A stretch of DNA of 32,559 nucleotides, taken from IMG/VR virus record IMGVR_UViG_3300005591_000005, positions 1-32,559 of that record, one strand, 5' to 3'. The number at the start of each line of letters is the position of its first letter. Position 1 is the first letter of the stretch. The stretch is from a virus. Both the position numbers and the translations under genes were made by a program. This document shows positions 438-29,812 of this stretch, in pieces. The notes beneath the pieces are model-generated. The model saw only the letters and a list, made by a program, of their open reading frames with translations. It did no database searches and had not been told where the DNA came from.

Positions 438-460
438 ATGTTACTATTCAAAACACTCTT

Positions 461-535
461 AAATTAGAAAGACTCCAAGCAGGCGGTTGAAGAATCCGCT
501 TTTCACTCCGTCGAGTTAGCTTGGTTCTATAATTT
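461..535. other. Structured inverted repeat, predicted three-way junction
   Basis: Nested pairings fold this stretch well. The outer arms AAATTA (461-466) and TAATTT (530-535) pair, as do GAA/TTC. CCAAGC (475-480) pairs with GCTTGG (519-524). Inside lie two hairpins: AGGCGG/CCGCTT (481-486/496-501, nine-base loop) and ACTC/GAGT (505-508/513-516, loop CGTC). The element sits between the toxin gene and the hypothetical gene at 437, and no long frame covers it. It could be a structured RNA, a folded single-strand DNA element or a small transposon-like remnant. No family is assigned. Confidence 0.5.
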
Positions 536-1260: not shown

Positions 1261-1908
1261 ATGCTCATAGGTTATGTTCGTATCTCAAAACACGATGGCT
1301 CTCAATCTTTCGATCTACAGAAAGATGCATTAGTTAAAGAAGGTATAGATCCAGAAAAAATTTATGAGGACAGTACTTCAGGAAAACATGATTCTCGCCC
1401 AGGATTAGATGCATGCTTAAAATCTCTTCGCCAGGGAGATACTTTGGTTGTATGGAAATTAGATAGGTTAGGTAGAGATCTTAAGAATCTCATTAATATT
1501 ATAGACAATCTTCGTTCCAAAAACATTAAGTTCAAAGTATTAACAGGACATGGAGCTCAGATAGATACTTCAACGGCTCATGGAAGAATGGCATTTGGTA
1601 TATTTGCATCATTAGCTGAATATGAAAGAGAACTTATATCTGAAAGAACCAGAGCGGGATTGGCGGCAGCCAGAGCTAGAGGTAAGTTAGGTGGTAGGAG
1701 AAGAATCATGACAGCTAAAAAGATACGAATAGCGATGGGAGCATTATCAGATAGAAATACTGAGGTTAGGGATATATTGGATATGTTAGGCGTGAAGAAA
1801 TCTACTTTATATTATTATGTAAGTCCCATTGGAGAACCTAAAGAACCAGCGAAGAAAATACTTGAACGAGCCGATAAAGCTAGAGAATATTTACAGAATG
1901 GGAAGTGA
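1261..1908 (+). CDS. Serine recombinase (resolvase/invertase type)
   Basis: 215 residues, the size of Tn3-type resolvases and Hin-type invertases and much smaller than large phage serine integrases. The N-terminal catalytic domain begins MLIGYVRISKHDGSQSFDLQ with the nucleophile Ser9. It continues with VVWKLDRLGRD near residues 63-73, carrying conserved Arg residues, and EYERELISERTRAGL around 115-130, leading into the long helix. A C-terminal helix-turn-helix reads RNTEVRDILDMLGVKKSTLYYYV. Start support is AAGGA six bases upstream. It faces the toxin-antitoxin operon. In this genome it could resolve multimers of a circular prophage or invert a DNA segment (terL-portal is inverted). No other integrase is visible. 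Confidence 0.93.
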   Translation: MLIGYVRISKHDGSQSFDLQKDALVKEGIDPEKIYEDSTSGKHDSRPGLDACLKSLRQGDTLVVWKLDRLGRDLKNLINIIDNLRSKNIKFKVLTGHGAQIDTSTAHGRMAFGIFASLAEYERELISERTRAGLAAARARGKLGGRRRIMTAKKIRIAMGALSDRNTEVRDILDMLGVKKSTLYYYVSPIGEPKEPAKKILERADKAREYLQNGK

Positions 1909-4662: not shown

Positions 4663-5511
4663 CTATGCAACTCCCTTAATTTTCTTTTTAAGGAAATCTA
4701 TGCATTTGTCTATATTTTCAGAGCTCATTTCTTCAACGGTTCCTGAATTTGCCTTGTCTAACCATTTTTGAATTGATTCTTCTGGGACTTGAAATAATTC
4801 AACCAATCTATTGAATTCTTCAATTTGTTCGATTGAAGCTAAGGTTTCAAACATTGATTCTTTTTCCAATATATTTTTTCCATATTTATCAGAAATATAA
4901 TCGTATCCAAAAGGAAATGATTCTCCATCAGGAAATCCTTCTAATCTTGTTTTCTTAATAAATCCAACTCGATCTTTTCCTCTTTTTTGTATCTCTAGTA
5001 CAAGATCGAACATGTAGTCTAGTTTTTTATAACAATCAAATGTTTGACCTAATACACTAAGGTTTTGACCATATTCTGTCTTAGAATGACTCGTGATAAT
5101 CACATTCATATCTAATCTCAATAATAAACTGACTAAATGTTTCATTTGTTTATTGGCCTCAGAATAATGTCTGCCATATTCTGTTCCATTTTTTATCGCA
5201 GATTTATCAACTAAATCGTTATAAATTGTTGTTAATGGGTCTATTACTAATGTTTTATAATCATGTTTTTCAGTTAACAATGATTTTATTTCTGCTATCA
5301 CTTCATTAAAATCACTTGTGTTAAAAATTGCCCCATTAGATTTTTCTAATAATTTTACATATTGACTGTGAATCGCTCCTTTTTCTGTATCAATTAAGTA
5401 AACATTTGGAAAGCTGATTGCCGCTGTTGTTTTTCCAACTCCCGCATTTCCATATAAAAATAATTTCAATCTTTTTTCTATTTCCGTAGGTTTAACTGCT
5501 TTTAATGCCAT
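4663..5511 (-). CDS. Sak4-like RecA-fold recombination ATPase
   Basis: 282 residues. Walker A is GNAGVGKT at residues 21-28 and Walker B is TLVID at 87-91. The stretch YLIDTEKG near 38-45 and a later NVIITSHSK correspond to the phage RecA-like Sak4/AAA_24 group. These single-strand annealing or exchange proteins work with a phage SSB. The SSB-like gene lies two genes downstream in the same operon, the usual partnership. AAGGGG lies 7 bases before the ATG. It could support recombination-dependent replication or repair of the circular genome. Confidence 0.8.
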   Translation of the reverse strand: MALKAVKPTEIEKRLKLFLYGNAGVGKTTAAISFPNVYLIDTEKGAIHSQYVKLLEKSNGAIFNTSDFNEVIAEIKSLLTEKHDYKTLVIDPLTTIYNDLVDKSAIKNGTEYGRHYSEANKQMKHLVSLLLRLDMNVIITSHSKTEYGQNLSVLGQTFDCYKKLDYMFDLVLEIQKRGKDRVGFIKKTRLEGFPDGESFPFGYDYISDKYGKNILEKESMFETLASIEQIEEFNRLVELFQVPEESIQKWLDKANSGTVEEMSSENIDKCIDFLKKKIKGVA

Positions 5512-16375: not shown

Positions 16376-17701
16376 ATGGCAGCAGTCACTAATATTTTAA
16401 CGCAGGTACAAACATACCAGCGCGCAGGTCTTGCTTTTCTACTCAACCAAAGTCCTTTTATCGCTACTAGCAATACGAAGTTCAAGGATTTTGAAAGAAT
16501 TACGGCTAACTTAGGATCAAGTGTCAGCTTCGATAAGCCACCACGCTATACAGATTCTGATTCTCTGGTTATTACATTCCAGCCATCAGTTCAGCGTGTA
16601 CAAGTTCTAACTGTAGACCAACAGGGTTCTGTCGGTTATGAATTCAGCGCACAAGAAAGAATTTTTAATGTTGATAAAGATACTGAAAGCTACATGAGAG
16701 AATTCGGTAGAGCAGCAGTTTATCAATTAGGTTCTAAGGTTGAAAAAAATGTTGCATTAAATGCGATTAGTGGCGTTATATCTCAGAACACTGGTCTTCC
16801 GAACATAACTTCTGGCCCATTTAGATTCTTTGGGGATGGCACAACTGCAATTAATTCATACGGTCAATTAGCCCAAATGATAGCCAACTTTAAAGATTTT
16901 GGTGCTCCATCTCATGATATGAAGGTTTATTTGCCTCTCACCGCTGTTCCAGCAATTGTTAATAGTGGTCTTTCTCAATTCACGGTTAATCGTGGAAATG
17001 AAGAAGCTGCTTCTTGGGAGATTGGAGAATTTGGAACTCCTCCTGTCAAATATTTCCAATCAAACTTGTTGCCAATTCAGTTCGCTGGAACTGTGGGTAA
17101 TGCAGGAACGACTTTAACAGTTGTCAGTACTAATGACCCAACTGGACAAAATATCAGTCAGATTACCTTTAGTGGCGCAACAATAAATGATGCGAATGCT
17201 ATTTTCTACGGTGATATGTTCCAATTTCAAGATGGTGTATCAGGCGAACCAAATCTTCGCTTCCTAACATTTATCGGAAATCATGTTAGTCAACAACCTG
17301 TTCAATTTAGAGCAACAGCAGCTGCTGGTGCTAATGGTAGTGGAGATGTCACAGTAAATATCTATCCTACACTTCAAGTTGGCCAGCCAAATAATGACAA
17401 TATTGGTATCAATACAAATATTGTTGCTGGTATGCAAGTTAAAGTTGCACCAAGTCATGCAGCAGGTGTTGTTATTGCTGGGGATGCTATGTTTTTAGGT
17501 ATGCCAAGATTACCAGACCAATCGCCTTTTTATACAGCCAATGAATACGATGATGAGACTGCGGTTTCTATGCGTATGACATATGGTGCATTGGTTTTCC
17601 AAAACCAACAAGGTATGGCGCATGATGTGATTTGGGGAAGTACTTGGGTTCCTGAATATACGATGCGTATCTTATTCCCATTGTCTAACTTAAATCCTTA
17701 A
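16376..17701 (+). CDS. Major coat protein, P22 gp5 type
   Basis: 441 residues (P22 gp5 has 430). It begins MAAVTNILTQVQTYQRAGLAFLLNQ and has the FKDFERITANLGSSVSFDKPPRY and EFSAQERIFNVDKDTESYMREFGRAAVYQLGSKVE segments of the HK97-fold P22 coat family. The end is QNQQGMAHDVIWGSTWVPEYTMRILFPLSNLNP. That tail is partly repeated at the end of the HNH endonuclease gene downstream. GGAG lies 9 bases before the ATG. It should form the icosahedral shell. Confidence 0.93.
   Translation: MAAVTNILTQVQTYQRAGLAFLLNQSPFIATSNTKFKDFERITANLGSSVSFDKPPRYTDSDSLVITFQPSVQRVQVLTVDQQGSVGYEFSAQERIFNVDKDTESYMREFGRAAVYQLGSKVEKNVALNAISGVISQNTGLPNITSGPFRFFGDGTTAINSYGQLAQMIANFKDFGAPSHDMKVYLPLTAVPAIVNSGLSQFTVNRGNEEAASWEIGEFGTPPVKYFQSNLLPIQFAGTVGNAGTTLTVVSTNDPTGQNISQITFSGATINDANAIFYGDMFQFQDGVSGEPNLRFLTFIGNHVSQQPVQFRATAAAGANGSGDVTVNIYPTLQVGQPNNDNIGINTNIVAGMQVKVAPSHAAGVVIAGDAMFLGMPRLPDQSPFYTANEYDDETAVSMRMTYGALVFQNQQGMAHDVIWGSTWVPEYTMRILFPLSNLNP
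17601..17641 (+). repeat. Coat-gene segment shared with the HNH gene
   Basis: These 41 bases near the coat 3' end match 19955-19995 at 38 positions, with mismatches at 17612, 17617 and 17639. The protein similarity continues further downstream (NQQ.AHDVIWG.....PE..MR.LF). Confidence 0.9.
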
Positions 17702-17719: not shown

Positions 17720-18526
17720 ATGGTCGCTACATTAGGTTATGAACAAATTGTTAATCAACCATTCCTTTATATTAATGGAATGAATATAACGGTTGCCTCA
17801 ACTACAACCTTAACTGTTACAAATGGTCAGTGTCGAGATATTACAGATGAATTTGATATCATCATCCCTGCTCCATTTATTTCTAGTCCTCCAGCCACAA
17901 CGACAATTAATGCTGCTGTAAATGGATTAAATGGTCTTGATACCGGAGTTCTTGCTAATAATACTTGGTATGCAGTTTATGCGATATTTAGCGTGACTCG
18001 TTCAAATTCAACGAATCCGGCTGGATATATCCTGTCAGCAAATCTTGTTAATAATCCAACTTTACCGCCTTTCTATAATGTTATTAGACGTATTGGATGG
18101 GCATTAACAGATGGTTCCGCTCATTTTCTAACTTATTGGCAAGCTGGAAATGGCTCTACGAGAACTTATCAATGGGATATTCCGATTACTGTTCATGCTT
18201 CTGCCGATGTAACTACATCATTTGCTGCTCAGGCTTTGAATACCGCAATCCCGACAAGCAATGCATTGCCAACTATATTAGGTGGATTATGGACGCCTAA
18301 TAGCGCTGGAGATGCTTTGTCATTAAGACCTACAACGTCTACTAGTACTAATGGTGTTCAAGTAGTAAGTGGTGATGTGGCGGCTGTTGCTCATGTTATT
18401 CAACCATTTCAATTTATACCCGCGTTAAATACATCGACACCTCCTGAGCCTTCTATTGATTTAAAAGGAACCTCGGCTAGCGATTTATTAACGTTAAATG
18501 TGGTTGGATTTGTAGACTACGTATAG
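17720..18526 (+). CDS. Hypothetical structural protein after coat
   Basis: 268 residues, beta-rich and Thr/Ser/Asn-rich (MVATLGYEQIVNQPFLYINGMNITVASTTTLTVTNGQCRD). No Cys clusters or membrane segments. GGGAG lies about 9 bases before the ATG. The location between coat and gp4-like genes suggests a decoration or head-completion protein; I do not recognise a P22 equivalent. Confidence 0.65.
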   Translation: MVATLGYEQIVNQPFLYINGMNITVASTTTLTVTNGQCRDITDEFDIIIPAPFISSPPATTTINAAVNGLNGLDTGVLANNTWYAVYAIFSVTRSNSTNPAGYILSANLVNNPTLPPFYNVIRRIGWALTDGSAHFLTYWQAGNGSTRTYQWDIPITVHASADVTTSFAAQALNTAIPTSNALPTILGGLWTPNSAGDALSLRPTTSTSTNGVQVVSGDVAAVAHVIQPFQFIPALNTSTPPEPSIDLKGTSASDLLTLNVVGFVDYV

Positions 18527-18535
18527 GAAAGTTTC

Positions 18536-19237
18536 ATGGCTTATACAGCGACTGAGCTGATAACAAAGTCATTTTACTTATCTGGAATTGTCGCTCGTGA
18601 CCTTCAAACGGTCACGGGCGCACAAATCTCGGAAGGCCTAGATTTACTCAATGAGATTCTCTCAAGACAGGCTGTTAACGTTAAAATGATTCCTTATTAT
18701 CAGGAGTTTGATTTAACAGCGGTTCAAGGACAAGAAACATATTTCATTCCTAACTTGATCGAAGCTGAGACATTTACGTTCAATATTGGGCCAGTTCGGT
18801 ATGCTACATCGGCTCTTTCTCGAACAGAATATTTCGGAACAGGTCGTATTGATAACATTCAGTCACTTCCTGTTACTTGGCACTACGAGCGTACATTAGG
18901 TGGTTCTAATATCTATCTTTATTTTCTTCCTTATCAAACTTTTCCTTTGAAGATATGGGGTAAAGCGGGATTAACAGATGTAACTTTTTCTACAGATTTA
19001 TCAACTGTTTATGATTTGTTCTACATCTCTTATCTTCGTTATGCCTTAGCTGAATATATTTGTGAAGACTATAACATTGATGTTCCTCCTAGAACGCTTA
19101 ATCGATTAAAGGCCTATGAGGAAGATTTCCAAACTATTTCTGTTCCCGATATGACTGTGCATAAAGTCAGTACATTTGGCAGTACACCCGTTCTCAATTG
19201 GGGAGACGTGAATTTTTCGAAAGGTTGGCGCCCCTAG
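18536..19237 (+). CDS. P22 gp4-like tail accessory factor (head-completion protein)
   Basis: 233 residues. The opening MAYTATELITKSFYLSGIVARDLQTVTGAQISEGLDLLNEILSRQ resembles the N-terminal helical core of P22 gp4-like proteins (LI..A...SGI...G.....G..L..LN.ll...). The C-terminus is long and polar and ends GRP-like. In P22 gp4 binds under the portal and begins the tail machine. It is followed by an HNH gene and then the gp10-like gene, so the insertion lies between the two tail-machine partners. Confidence 0.8.
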   Translation: MAYTATELITKSFYLSGIVARDLQTVTGAQISEGLDLLNEILSRQAVNVKMIPYYQEFDLTAVQGQETYFIPNLIEAETFTFNIGPVRYATSALSRTEYFGTGRIDNIQSLPVTWHYERTLGGSNIYLYFLPYQTFPLKIWGKAGLTDVTFSTDLSTVYDLFYISYLRYALAEYICEDYNIDVPPRTLNRLKAYEEDFQTISVPDMTVHKVSTFGSTPVLNWGDVNFSKGWRP

Positions 19238-19312
19238 GTTGGAGTCCTTGACATGAGATAGAAAATTAGTTAGCCTTTGGTTTCTTTTAAAACAACCAGA
19301 GGACGACTAAAA

Positions 19313-20038
19313 ATGATTTTAGAAAAAATATGCGATAAACATGGTGTATTAATTCAGGAAAATATTTATACGGAAAAAAGTAAGAATAAAATCGGATATT
19401 CGATTAGATGCAGATTATGCAAATTAGAGAAAGATAGAAAATGGAAAGAAAATAATAGGGAAAAGCATAGAGCAAGTGCAGCTACATCACGTAATAAAGA
19501 TAGAACTCATGTTAATGAATGGGTAAGAAATGATAGAGCTGCTAATCCTGAAAAATACAGAAATTATGAAAGAGTCTATAGGAAAAGAAGAGGCGCAGCA
19601 GATGATAACTATAGATTAAAAGATAAACTAAAATCATATAATTTAACAGTTGAACAATATAAAGACATGATAGAAAAACAAAACAATAAATGTGCAATAT
19701 GCGGTAATGAAGAAACCAGACGCTCAAGAACATCTGGAAAGATTGTTACATTATCTGTAGACCATTGTCATGATTCTAATAAAGTTCGCTCATTATTATG
19801 CCATTCATGTAATGTTGGATTAGGCGCATTTAAAGATTCAATTGAATTACTTGATAAAGCCATTGAATATCTAAAAAAGCATAATAAAAATCAAAGTCAA
19901 GATGATGAGCTAATTAAGGAAAATCAAAAAAGTTTCGTAGATGGGTTTACTAAAGAAAACCAACAAAGTATAGCGCATGATGTGATTTGGGGAGGTTATT
20001 TTATCCCTGATTTTGAGATGAGGTCATTGTTTACATGA
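19313..20038 (+). CDS. HNH (endonuclease VII-like) homing endonuclease with coat-derived tail
   Basis: 241 residues from ATG 19313, with GAGG about 11 bases upstream; a TTG at 19277 is less likely. An early CDKHG..C..C pair and a long basic helix (NREKHRASAATSRNKDRTHVNEW) precede the catalytic region CAICGNEE...LSVDHCHDSNKVRSLLCHSCNVGLGAF, the recombination endonuclease VII signature with a DHCH core and four Cys for zinc. The last about 25 residues (NQQSIAHDVIWGGYFIPDFEMRSLF) match the coat C-terminus (NQQGMAHDVIWGSTWVPEYTMRILF) at 15 of 25 positions. Its stop overlaps the next start (ATGA). It is probably a free-standing homing endonuclease. Confidence 0.9.
   Translation: MILEKICDKHGVLIQENIYTEKSKNKIGYSIRCRLCKLEKDRKWKENNREKHRASAATSRNKDRTHVNEWVRNDRAANPEKYRNYERVYRKRRGAADDNYRLKDKLKSYNLTVEQYKDMIEKQNNKCAICGNEETRRSRTSGKIVTLSVDHCHDSNKVRSLLCHSCNVGLGAFKDSIELLDKAIEYLKKHNKNQSQDDELIKENQKSFVDGFTKENQQSIAHDVIWGGYFIPDFEMRSLFT
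19955..19995 (+). repeat. Coat-like segment within the HNH gene
   Basis: 38 of 41 bases equal to 17601-17641, with identical reading frame. The match is stronger at the DNA level than the rest of the shared C-terminus, where codons have diverged. Confidence 0.9.
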
Positions 20039-21525
20039 GACCAACTTCTCCTATAGTCCAATCAGTTCCATTACCAGTTGTTGTCTCCAATGTCTTTGGT
20101 CGTTATCCAAAGATAAGCGTAGAACAATGCTGGAACATGATTCAGTCTGATAATTGGATGGTTGATTATGCAGGATATGCCAATGTCTCACAGATTCAAC
20201 CACCGGGGTTAGGTGTAGGAAGAGCATTATTTTCTAGTTCGAAAGCAGGGGTGATGTTTTCAGTAGTAGGAGATACTTTTTTTATCATCCCGCCATCGCT
20301 TATACCCATTCCCGTAGGAACTCTTGCGACGTTTTCAGGAGAAGTAACAATCGATGAAAATGATGCTAATCAGATAGCCATTTGCGATGAAGTGAATATT
20401 TATATCTATAATTATGTGACCAATACTTTTTCTATTGCTATGAATACAATAGATAATATGACTCCGAATGGTCCTCTATCCTTCGTTCCAGGATATATTA
20501 ATTTCCAAGATGGTTATTTTATAGCGCCTGCACTAGATCAAAACGCCTGGTTCTTATCTAATATTAATAATGGTTTATTATGGAATCCATTAGACCAGGG
20601 AACCTTTCAAACGAAGCCTGATAATGTTGTAGCATGTGTTAGATTCCCAGCAAAAGGAAATCTATTATTTGTAATCGGAAATACTGTCACTGAAGCTTGG
20701 TATGATACTGGAAACTTTCCATTTCCTTATCAGCGTAGTCAAAGCTATAACATTGATTATGGAACTTTGAATTCTGCAACAATTGCTGCGATTGATAGTT
20801 TCATAGTTTGGCTTGGTGCTAATGAAAATTCTGGCCCAGTTATCATGTATAGCACGGGTGGTGATATCAAAAGAGTTAGTAATGATGGAATAGATTTTAA
20901 ATTCTCTCAATTGACTAATCCAAAAGATTCATATGGTTTCTTATTTAAACAAGATGGTCATTTAATCTATCAGCTCACTTTTCCTACCGATAATCTTACT
21001 TATGCATTTGATTTTAATACAGGTAAATTCAGCACACTTTGTAATGAACAAATGAATTATCACATTGCAAAACAAGTAGCCTTCTTTAATAACACTTATT
21101 ATTTCGTGAGCAATATTGATGGGAATTTATATGAATTTAGTACTAAGTATACTAATTATAATTACGGTAATAATGTTATATACGAGATTCCTAGGATATT
21201 AATAACTAAGACATTCAGGCTACCAGATAACTCTGCATTTATAGCAAATTCTCATACTTTTACGATAGAAGAAGGTGAAGAAGCAGATTCTGATATGCCA
21301 AGAGTTGATTTAAGTGTGTCTTATGATGGGGGAGTTATATTTGGTAATATTGTTAGCTATGAATTGAATTCATTAGGTAATAGAAGAAATAGGATTGTAT
21401 TTTGGCGTTTAGGATATACCAATGAAATAACACTTCAATATCGATTATGGGGATTTGGAAGATTTGTATTGGGAGGTGGTGAATTGAGTGTTTACCAGGG
21501 CTCTCCTGTGGCAGAGGCAGCTTAA
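20035..21525 (+). CDS. P22 gp10-like packaged-DNA stabilisation protein
   Basis: 496 residues, close to P22 gp10 (472). It starts MRPTSPIVQSVPLPVVVSNVFGRYPKISVEQCWNM. The body is beta-propeller-like (YAGYANVSQIQPPG, GDTFFIIPPSLIPI, IAICDEVNIYIYNYVTNTF), matching the gp10 tail-hub fold that closes the portal channel after packaging. The start overlaps the end of the HNH gene (ATGA) rather than of gp4, showing that the HNH insertion has been accommodated. GAGG lies about 13 bases upstream. Confidence 0.85.
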   Translation: MRPTSPIVQSVPLPVVVSNVFGRYPKISVEQCWNMIQSDNWMVDYAGYANVSQIQPPGLGVGRALFSSSKAGVMFSVVGDTFFIIPPSLIPIPVGTLATFSGEVTIDENDANQIAICDEVNIYIYNYVTNTFSIAMNTIDNMTPNGPLSFVPGYINFQDGYFIAPALDQNAWFLSNINNGLLWNPLDQGTFQTKPDNVVACVRFPAKGNLLFVIGNTVTEAWYDTGNFPFPYQRSQSYNIDYGTLNSATIAAIDSFIVWLGANENSGPVIMYSTGGDIKRVSNDGIDFKFSQLTNPKDSYGFLFKQDGHLIYQLTFPTDNLTYAFDFNTGKFSTLCNEQMNYHIAKQVAFFNNTYYFVSNIDGNLYEFSTKYTNYNYGNNVIYEIPRILITKTFRLPDNSAFIANSHTFTIEEGEEADSDMPRVDLSVSYDGGVIFGNIVSYELNSLGNRRNRIVFWRLGYTNEITLQYRLWGFGRFVLGGGELSVYQGSPVAEAA

Positions 21526-21526
21526 T

Positions 21527-21964
21527 ATGAATCAAATTCCTCCTTTTGATAATATTCAATTCGTTCAAAAAGATGGTTATTTAACTGATAGTGAGAAGCA
21601 AAATTTAATCCAACTTTATCAAGCATTAAAGAATTATCAAAGATTAAATTCTGTTAGCGGTACAAGTATCATAATGGATTTTGATCAAAACTACGTGACT
21701 ACTTCTTCTTCACTTACAACATTGACATTACCTGCTGTGATTCCATTTGGAAGTACATTGGCAGTTTATGGATATTCAAGTGGTGGTTGGAAGATATCTC
21801 AAAATGCTAATCAAAATATTTTATATACAAATGTTTTTACAACAACAGGGACAGGAGGTAGTTTATCTTCCACAAGTCAAGGAGATTGTGTTACGTTAGT
21901 ATGTGTGGTGGAGAATTTAAATTTCTTAGTAATCAATTACGTAGGAACACTCACACCGGTTTAA
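21527..21964 (+). CDS. Small tail protein in the tail-needle position
   Basis: 145 residues from the ATG at 21527, directly after the gp10-like stop. A short helical part (LTDSEKQNLIQLYQALKNYQRL) is followed by a beta-rich module from about residue 55 (TLTLPAVIPFGSTLAVYG, GGWKISQNANQNILYTNV, TTTGTGGSLSSTSQGDCVTLVCVV). The same module ends the proteins at 28130 and 28922. In P22 the next gene after gp10 is the needle gp26. This protein lacks the long coiled coil, so it may be a short plug or knob; that is inference. Confidence 0.65.
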   Translation: MNQIPPFDNIQFVQKDGYLTDSEKQNLIQLYQALKNYQRLNSVSGTSIIMDFDQNYVTTSSSLTTLTLPAVIPFGSTLAVYGYSSGGWKISQNANQNILYTNVFTTTGTGGSLSSTSQGDCVTLVCVVENLNFLVINYVGTLTPV

Positions 21965-28129: not shown

Positions 28130-28903
28130 ATGGCAGATGTTAAATTTAGTCAATTTGCAAGCGGTGGCGCTCAAGTAACAGGAGATATTGTTGTAGGATT
28201 GAGATCGGGTGTGAATACGCAATTTAATGCGACGCTTCCATTACCAACTACAGCTACAGCAGACCAAATTTTATTATCTGGAGCAAGTTCTGCGCCTAGT
28301 TGGAGCACAAGTACTTATCCGGCAACTAATGCAATAAACACACTTTTATATGCAAGCTCTGCAAATGTAATGTCTGCATTAGCAACGGCTGATAATGGTG
28401 TATTAACAACTGGTACAACTGGCACTCCAGTTATTACTGCGCTTTCATCAAATGGGCAGCTTATAATCGGTTCTGGCAGTGGAGCTCCAGCAGCTGCCAC
28501 CTTAACAGCAGGAACTGGCGTTATAATTTCTAATGGTGCGAATAGCATTACAATCTCATCAACTGGTGGTTCATTTGCATGGGTTGATGCAACATCTTCC
28601 ACACAAAGTTTAGCAGTCCAAACTGGTTATATAACTGATAATTCAGGAGGGGTCACTTATACATTGCCTGCTACGGCTTCTCTAGGGGATCAAATTAGGA
28701 TAATGGGGAAACAAACATCATGGACGATAGCTCAAAATGCTAATCAGCAAATTTTGGTCGGATCTTCTTCATCAACAGTAGGAACTGGAGGAAGTGTTGC
28801 ATCTACAAATTTAGGAGATTGTATATGGTTAGTATGTATTACTTCTGGAGCATCTACCGTATGGAGAGCTGAATCTTTGGTAGGAAATTTAACTGTCACT
28901 TAA
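28130..28903 (+). CDS. Tail-fibre-like protein with shared C-terminal module
   Basis: 257 residues, low in charge and rich in Ser/Thr/Ala/Gly. The N-terminus MADVKFSQFASGGAQVTGDIVVGLRSGVN is a common start for phage fibre proteins. Repeats of Gly/Thr-rich triple-helix type follow. From about residue 172 comes TYTLPATASLGDQIRIMG, TSWTIAQNANQQILVG, STVGTGGSVASTNLGDCIWLVCI, a module shared with the proteins at 21527 and 28922. AGGA lies about 7 bases before the ATG. Confidence 0.75.
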   Translation: MADVKFSQFASGGAQVTGDIVVGLRSGVNTQFNATLPLPTTATADQILLSGASSAPSWSTSTYPATNAINTLLYASSANVMSALATADNGVLTTGTTGTPVITALSSNGQLIIGSGSGAPAAATLTAGTGVIISNGANSITISSTGGSFAWVDATSSTQSLAVQTGYITDNSGGVTYTLPATASLGDQIRIMGKQTSWTIAQNANQQILVGSSSSTVGTGGSVASTNLGDCIWLVCITSGASTVWRAESLVGNLTVT

Positions 28904-28921: not shown

Positions 28922-29812
28922 ATGGCTACTAATATAAATGCATGCGATCAAACAATAACGCAATATAATATACAAACTGGTGGCGCAAATAATTTACTTA
29001 ATAATGTTGCTCCATCAGCTACTTCTGGAGTTGCAGTTATTTCTCAGGGTTCTTCTTCTCAACCAGTATTCGGAACAGTAGTAGTTGCTGGTGGTGGGAC
29101 AGGCGCAACAACACCATCAGGGGCAAGAACAAATTTAGGTGCCGCTGCATCAGGCGCTAATTCTGATATCACTTCTTTAACTGGATTAACTGGAGCAATT
29201 CAAACTCCAACATCTATTAGTGTAGGTGGTGCATCGGTTCCTGTTGTTACTCTGACCTCAAATGCTGGGGGTGGAATATTACAACTTAGCGTAACTGGTG
29301 GTATATCCGCATATGTTGGAACTGCTAATAATATTCCATTACAACTATACACAGGTAATGTTGAAAGAGGTTTCATAGGAACTTCTGGGGGAATTGTTTG
29401 GGGAACTACTTCAAATACAGATGAAGGAACAGGAACTATTAATGTTTCTGGTGGTTATTATATTAATAATAATCCGATTAATGCTTTTGTCTGGAATAAT
29501 CTTGGTACAGCAACATCACAAACAATGGCCACAAATAATGGCTATTTTTCAAATAATTCAACTTTAATTACTTATACATTGCCTGCAACAGCGGCGGCAG
29601 GGACAACTTTTAGAGTAGCAGGATTAGGCGCTGGCGGGTGGAGTATTGTTTATAATTCTGGACAAAATATACAATTTGGTAATGTATCAACGACCACGAC
29701 TACCGGAAATTTATCTTCAGCTAATCAATATGATTGCGTTCATTTATTAACAACAGTTGCCAATACAACATTTGAAGTTATAAGCGTTCAAGGTAATCCA
29801 ACATACGTTTAA
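28922..29812 (+). CDS. Tail-fibre-like protein with GGTGATT repeat and shared module
   Basis: 296 residues. VVVAGGGTGATTPSGARTNLGAAASG is the classical fibre repeat (GGTGATT...ARTNLGA). The C-terminal 90 residues (LITYTLPATAAAGTTFRVAG, GGWSIVYNSGQNIQFGNV, TGNLSSANQYDCVHLLTTV) are the same module as in the preceding fibre-like gene and in the protein at 21527. No obvious enzymatic motif. Shine-Dalgarno is weak. Confidence 0.75.
   Translation: MATNINACDQTITQYNIQTGGANNLLNNVAPSATSGVAVISQGSSSQPVFGTVVVAGGGTGATTPSGARTNLGAAASGANSDITSLTGLTGAIQTPTSISVGGASVPVVTLTSNAGGGILQLSVTGGISAYVGTANNIPLQLYTGNVERGFIGTSGGIVWGTTSNTDEGTGTINVSGGYYINNNPINAFVWNNLGTATSQTMATNNGYFSNNSTLITYTLPATAAAGTTFRVAGLGAGGWSIVYNSGQNIQFGNVSTTTTTGNLSSANQYDCVHLLTTVANTTFEVISVQGNPTYV

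Follow-up and report, generated by a model that had tools for sequence, protein, structure and literature searches.

A free-standing endonuclease VII-type gene of a P22-like phage ends in a segment derived from the coat gene

Endonucleases of the F-CphI/DHHRN family (PMC6083498) carry an endonuclease VII (Endo VII) motif in the C-terminal half of a phage protein of ~200 residues and are encoded by free-standing genes that are present or absent at a fixed site, F-CphI itself adjoining the intron-containing psbA gene. In the fungal mitochondrial mORFs (PMC3630166), the endonuclease gene is followed by a second, diverged copy of the C-terminus of the host gene; there the endonuclease lies inside a duplicated gene, the host gene is a hybrid, and the duplicated ends are 63.5% identical in nucleotides but 91% in amino acids. 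For phage T4, the portion of the free-standing endonuclease literature consulted (PMC2988022) describes intergenic nuclease genes among essential phage genes; no T4 enzyme with the end of a structural gene was found in that portion.

The gene described here has likenesses to each of these systems. It shares with the F-CphI family the free-standing organization, the position of the motif within the protein, and a pattern of presence or absence at a fixed site, here the gp4/gp10 junction, among related genomes. Unlike F-CphI, it has no intron beside it in the window (Rfam), and its product bears a piece of the coat protein at the C-terminus. As in the mORFs, an endonuclease gene is followed by a second, diverged host-gene end, but the coat gene is unbroken and separated from the endonuclease gene by two others, and the reading frame of the enzyme runs on into the coat piece. 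As in T4, the gene is intergenic and lies among essential phage genes.

The window, i.e., the whole stretch of DNA analyzed, comprises the 32,559 bases of an IMG/VR virus record and has a P22-like gene order. On the plus strand it carries a P22/Sf6-like coat gene encoding 441 residues (16376 to 17701; phrog_283, E 9e-12), a conserved open reading frame (ORF) found at the same position in most relatives (17720 to 18526), a gp4-like gene named by its position (18536 to 19237; phrog_12985, function unknown), the endonuclease gene (19313 to 20038), and a gp10-like head-closure gene (20035 to 21525; phrog_578, E 5.7e-50) whose start overlaps the endonuclease stop codon in an ATGA. This order agrees with the sequence-only reading, which had set the endonuclease between gp4-like and gp10-like genes, and its view of the coat gene as intact also holds. 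The model of the coat protein matches by Foldseek the coats of Sf6 (5l35, E 1.7e-20) and P22 (E about 1e-16). A Sak4-like single-strand annealing recombinase is encoded on the minus strand (4663 to 5511; phrog_124, E 5.9e-28). Near the left end lie an int-alpA RNA (457 to 526, minus strand; Rfam) and a serine resolvase gene (1261 to 1908, plus strand), suggesting a temperate phage or an integrated element. The int-alpA RNA was the only hit of an Rfam gathering search of the window, by which a group I intron with an embedded endonuclease was rejected.

The open frame of the endonuclease runs from a TTG at 19277 to 20038. The start is likely the ATG at 19313, giving 241 residues, because the proteins of the relatives begin at that Met in the alignment and because its ribosome-binding site is the better one (-5.8 kcal versus -2.7 for the TTG). 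The product matches Pfam PF02945 (E 5.6e-22), and its catalytic domain, with the motif CxxC, DHxH, R, CxxC-N, is encoded at 19628 to 19879 (Pfam stretch 118-201; residues 106-189 of 241, in the C-terminal half). Across 21 aligned sequences, C127, C130, D150, H151, H153, R159, C163, C166, and N167 are all invariant. The D, H, R, and N are spaced as F-CphI D101, H102, R110, and N118, with the R at +8 and the N at +16 from the H. The enzyme is related to Hpy99I (phmmer E 8.9e-10), and Hpy99I and T4 Endo VII were the top structural matches by Foldseek, though weak ones (E 3e-3 to 1e-2). What had been called an HNH homing endonuclease is not a classical HNH enzyme but a member of the Endo VII-motif (DHHRN) group. 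That it may be active in homing is suggested by this membership and by the pattern of its presence and absence among relatives.

In the relatives the nuclease domain ends the protein, the enzymes encoded at the same site stopping a few residues at most from the last helix, whereas the window's enzyme continues for ~49 residues more. About 22 of these form a linker without counterpart (19889 to 19954), absent from the relatives and with no match in the other fetched loci. The rest is the coat-derived tail, 27 codons at 19955 to 20035 that end at the gp10 start codon and correspond to coat codons 409-435 (17600 to 17680), the last beta-hairpin of the AlphaFold2 (AF2) model of the coat. Within the linker, 19917 to 19938 (KENQKS) partially repeats the first bases of the tail (KENQQS), with 16 of 22 positions identical to 19953 to 19974. 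It is the sole such place in the 32.5-kb window besides the coat gene and possibly represents a microhomology or an older partial copy.

The resemblance of the enzyme's C-terminus to the coat, the central observation of the sequence-only reading, was confirmed, 15 of 26 residues agreeing (coat 409-434). The underlying count of 38 identities in 41 bases is likewise correct, though the tract spans 19956 to 19996 (against coat 17601 to 17641) and had been placed one base off, at 19955; in the codon register 17600/19955, 37 of 41 bases are identical. A repeat search extended the match to 80% over 65 nucleotides (17601 to 17665 versus 19956 to 20020). When the endonuclease gene was codon-shuffled 200 times, its best 41-base match to the coat gene reached only 29, against the real 38, and in a blastn search of the tail against every fetched locus the window's own coat gene was the single significant hit (E 1e-10). 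Past base 19996 nucleotide identity falls to 19/36, but the 12 residues that follow, YFIPDFEMRSLF versus TWVPEYTMRILF, give a BLOSUM score of 31. Among 16,038 12-mers from the window's forward frames (mean -12, SD 8), only the tail itself scored above 31, and the one other at 31 was the coat segment. The 12-residue match is therefore significant, and the homology begins at 19955 and reaches as far as the start codon of gp10 (20035); upstream of 19955 the endonuclease has no similarity to the coat. A chance match was rejected on the codon-shuffled control and the 12-mer scores.

Wider searches yielded no other carrier of the tail. The degenerate patterns AHDVIWG and HDVIWGG matched 92 stretches in viral and genome contigs, none of them a coat or endonuclease relative. 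Searches of INPHARED by tblastn and blastn recovered many Endo VII relatives, and among the matches listed only that of Klebsiella phage PQ505476 reached the tail; it was discarded when core and tail were re-tested apart and the core alone matched. Coat relatives in INPHARED were just 21 to 23% identical, no match was found there at the DNA level, and a protein search of genome contigs found no prophage with this coat.

To place the gene among its relatives, we compared 122 loci, the window included, obtained from two coat scans and one enzyme scan of related contigs. The coat-tailed endonuclease is a single instance on one metagenome contig, and near-identical records may be missing from the relatives searched. 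An Endo VII gene occupies the gp4/gp10 junction in 22 of the 81 contigs in which both flanking genes could be read (window included, some near-identical), and the unoccupied junctions are mostly a gap of under ~220 bases. All 21 other Endo VII genes at this site are without the coat tail, having at most a short C-terminal extension. Since the Endo VII gene is often found at gp4/gp10 without the tail, the enzyme is at home there and the tail is the novelty. The alternative that the tail had always been part of the region upstream of gp10 was rejected, as a coat-like stretch is absent from that region in every relative. In an 83-row tree the rows nearest to the window's enzyme were the same-site genes of loci L073, L207, L198, and L190, with weak support.

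No second coat end was present in the 121 related loci besides the window or in 33 full records, an initial flag in L072 being dismissed as a coat gene cut by the contig end, and in none of these loci and records did an Endo VII gene adjoin the 3′ end of a coat gene. When relatives were searched for an endonuclease in or adjoining the coat gene, only a different, zinc-ribbon nuclease family was encountered; in 8 of 113 contigs its gene immediately follows the coat gene, and it is without a coat piece. Members of this nuclease-like family were seen in L026 (1441-2178), L029 (7645-8235), L030 (9325-9990), L032 (8024-8779), L034 (5070-5741), and L037 (9297-10025), and also in L221, L222, and L211. 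Their zinc-ribbon motifs are repeated, an HNH-like motif, AHHDDYxKPLEVRWLC, lies at the C-terminus, and none of three tested matched Pfam. Another kind of fusion was observed in L036 (5492-6298), where an Endo VII gene is joined in frame to the complete downstream DUF6582-like gene, which stands alone in L040, L037, L024, and L025. As in the window, the 3′ end of an Endo VII gene has there gained phage coding sequence, but by loss of a stop codon and read-through into the neighbor, not by duplication from elsewhere.

The polarity of the copying can be read from the coat family. At the near-invariant coat columns G4 (115/117), S13 (107/117), V16 (114/117), Y19 (112/117), and P26 (115/117), the window's own coat keeps the consensus while the tail departs from it, which marks the coat as the source. 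The 3′ end of the own coat gene conforms to the consensus of the family and shows no unusual divergence. Over the first 42 nucleotides, the tail matches its own coat at 38 positions and the best of 117 other coats at 30, and an A at coat column 6 is common to the tail, the own coat, and only one of the 117. The nearness of this 5′ part to the own coat points to a local source. Comparison of the tail with related coats bears out its coat ancestry, as had been proposed. The last 36 nucleotides carry no lineage signal, with 19/36 identities to the own coat and 21/36 to the best other coat. This unevenness (38/42 versus 19/36; Fisher P = 0.00025) has an equal in only 3 of 6,786 coat pairs. The amino acid replacements of the 3′ half are more conservative than a neutral simulation yields (P = 0.003 to 0.004), which would imply some protein-level constraint before or after transfer; the 5′ half gives no such signal. 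All four changes of the 5′ half are nonsynonymous, and several fall at coat-invariant residues. As judged from these comparisons, the pattern would best fit an older coat copy in which a short conversion tract later renewed the 5′ part, and nearly as well the end of a foreign coat gene that the own coat overwrote in part.

The tail also bears on the next gene. A predicted Shine-Dalgarno (SD) sequence for gp10, GAGGT at 20020 to 20024 on the plus strand, lies inside the coat-derived segment and pairs with the anti-SD at -6.8 kcal, versus +0.1 kcal for the equivalent coat bases. A synonymous swap of an Arg codon, CGT to AGG, contributes to it. The piece would thus have gained a gp10 SD that the coat is without.

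Taken together, we consider it fairly probable that the coat 3′ end was copied in place onto a resident Endo VII gene, then drifted, and later had its first ~40 bases refreshed. A free-standing Endo VII/DHHRN-type gene would already have been resident at gp4/gp10, a regular site in these P22-like phages. Recombination within the phage or between sister phages would then have added a copy of the final ~80 coding bases of the coat to the 3′ end of the endonuclease gene, joining them in frame up to the gp10 start codon. The copying may have proceeded by short-homology annealing or template switching, for which the linker repeat could have served as microhomology and the Sak4-like protein of the phage is a candidate agent. 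Sak4 tolerates up to 20% divergence in the oligonucleotides that it anneals (PMC5928155), and the consulted portion of the T4 literature (PMC2988022) offers parallels in the microhomology junctions of one-sided repair events and in documented ectopic or illegitimate repair at microhomologies for T4 introns. Either a single template switch or a tandem duplication followed by deletion may have been involved. No longer part of a coat, the tail would have drifted at coat-invariant positions and gained the ribosome-binding site of gp10, and gene conversion over a short tract, with the intact coat gene as donor, would later have refreshed its first ~40 bases. For the enzyme itself the tail probably does nothing. 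Several points weigh against copying in place: the 3′ half is no closer to the own coat than to some other coats, so a foreign coat could be its supplier; its conservative amino acid changes exceed what neutral drift predicts; two events, copy and refreshment, are needed to account for the unevenness; and the Endo VII tree is weakly supported and the instance single.

The sequence-only reading had instead proposed that the endonuclease once sat in or beside a coat 3′ end in a related phage and later moved to gp4/gp10 with the fused coat end. Of this, the derivation of the tail from a P22-like coat C-terminus stands, with the coat as the source, whereas an earlier residence of the enzyme at the coat gene appears unlikely. 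Such a history has its counterpart in the fungal mitochondria, where an endonuclease with a duplicated or displaced host-gene C-terminus is known (PMC3630166) and where the stronger conservation of amino acids than of nucleotides recalls the conservative 3′ half of the tail. The coat 3′ side does accept another nuclease family (the 8 of 113 contigs above). This history survives as a rival because of the fungal cases and because the relatives searched may leave out near-identical records. Against it stand the common tailless Endo VII genes at the same site, the absence of a coat-proximal Endo VII gene or second coat end from the 121 related loci and 33 full records, and a 5′ tract nearest to the phage's own coat; these observations disfavor a move from the coat locus.

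That the coat-like C-terminus was kept for what it does, whether for the protein in capsid or scaffold binding or as a homology arm into coat genes, seems to us improbable. The conservative changes in the 3′ half would accord with it, as would the correspondence of the piece to the last beta-hairpin of the coat model and the presence of a ~40-base arm near-identical to the coat 3′ end. However, the four changes of the 5′ half are all nonsynonymous, several of them at coat-invariant residues, the AF2 model predicts the tail to be unfolded (pLDDT 52 to 62), every relative lacks it, and a lone ~40-base arm would permit a one-sided event at most. Its more specific forms, in which that arm is held near-identical by repeated conversion for entering coat genes or the tail is a coat-mimic peptide that directs the enzyme to the virion, are very improbable; the former, if true, would be a novel means by which free-standing endonucleases arrive at another site. 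An assembly artifact, in which the contig mis-joins two places through a repeat, deserves mention since this is a single metagenome-derived record, but it is scarcely credible. The two copies differ (80% identity over 65 nucleotides, 53% in the last 36) and so are not one misplaced read set; the nuclease frame continues through the tail, which stops exactly where gp10 starts and contains the SD of that gene; and the genes to either side are arranged as in the relatives. We rejected the artifact on the divergence of the copies and the reading frame.

Under the favored history of copying in place, a mobile endonuclease gene would have been caught taking up part of an essential structural gene, and the same-site relatives would show the prior state. 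The case suggests how mobile endonuclease genes collect the ends of host genes and how a copied coding piece becomes the ribosome-binding region of the next gene.

Other genes of this region also vary. The ORF that follows the coat gene (the homologue of window 17720 to 18526) is present once in most relatives and in five tandem, diverged copies in L006 (9368-13020). The gp4-like proteins of L026, L029, L032, L039 to L041, L172, and L179 have long in-frame insertions relative to that of the window, all in the same region of the protein. Three ORFs of the window (21488 to 21964, 28130 to 28903, and 28922 to 29812) encode a common C-terminal domain of ~95 residues with 38 to 46% identity, and the last two of them have weak tail-fiber matches.
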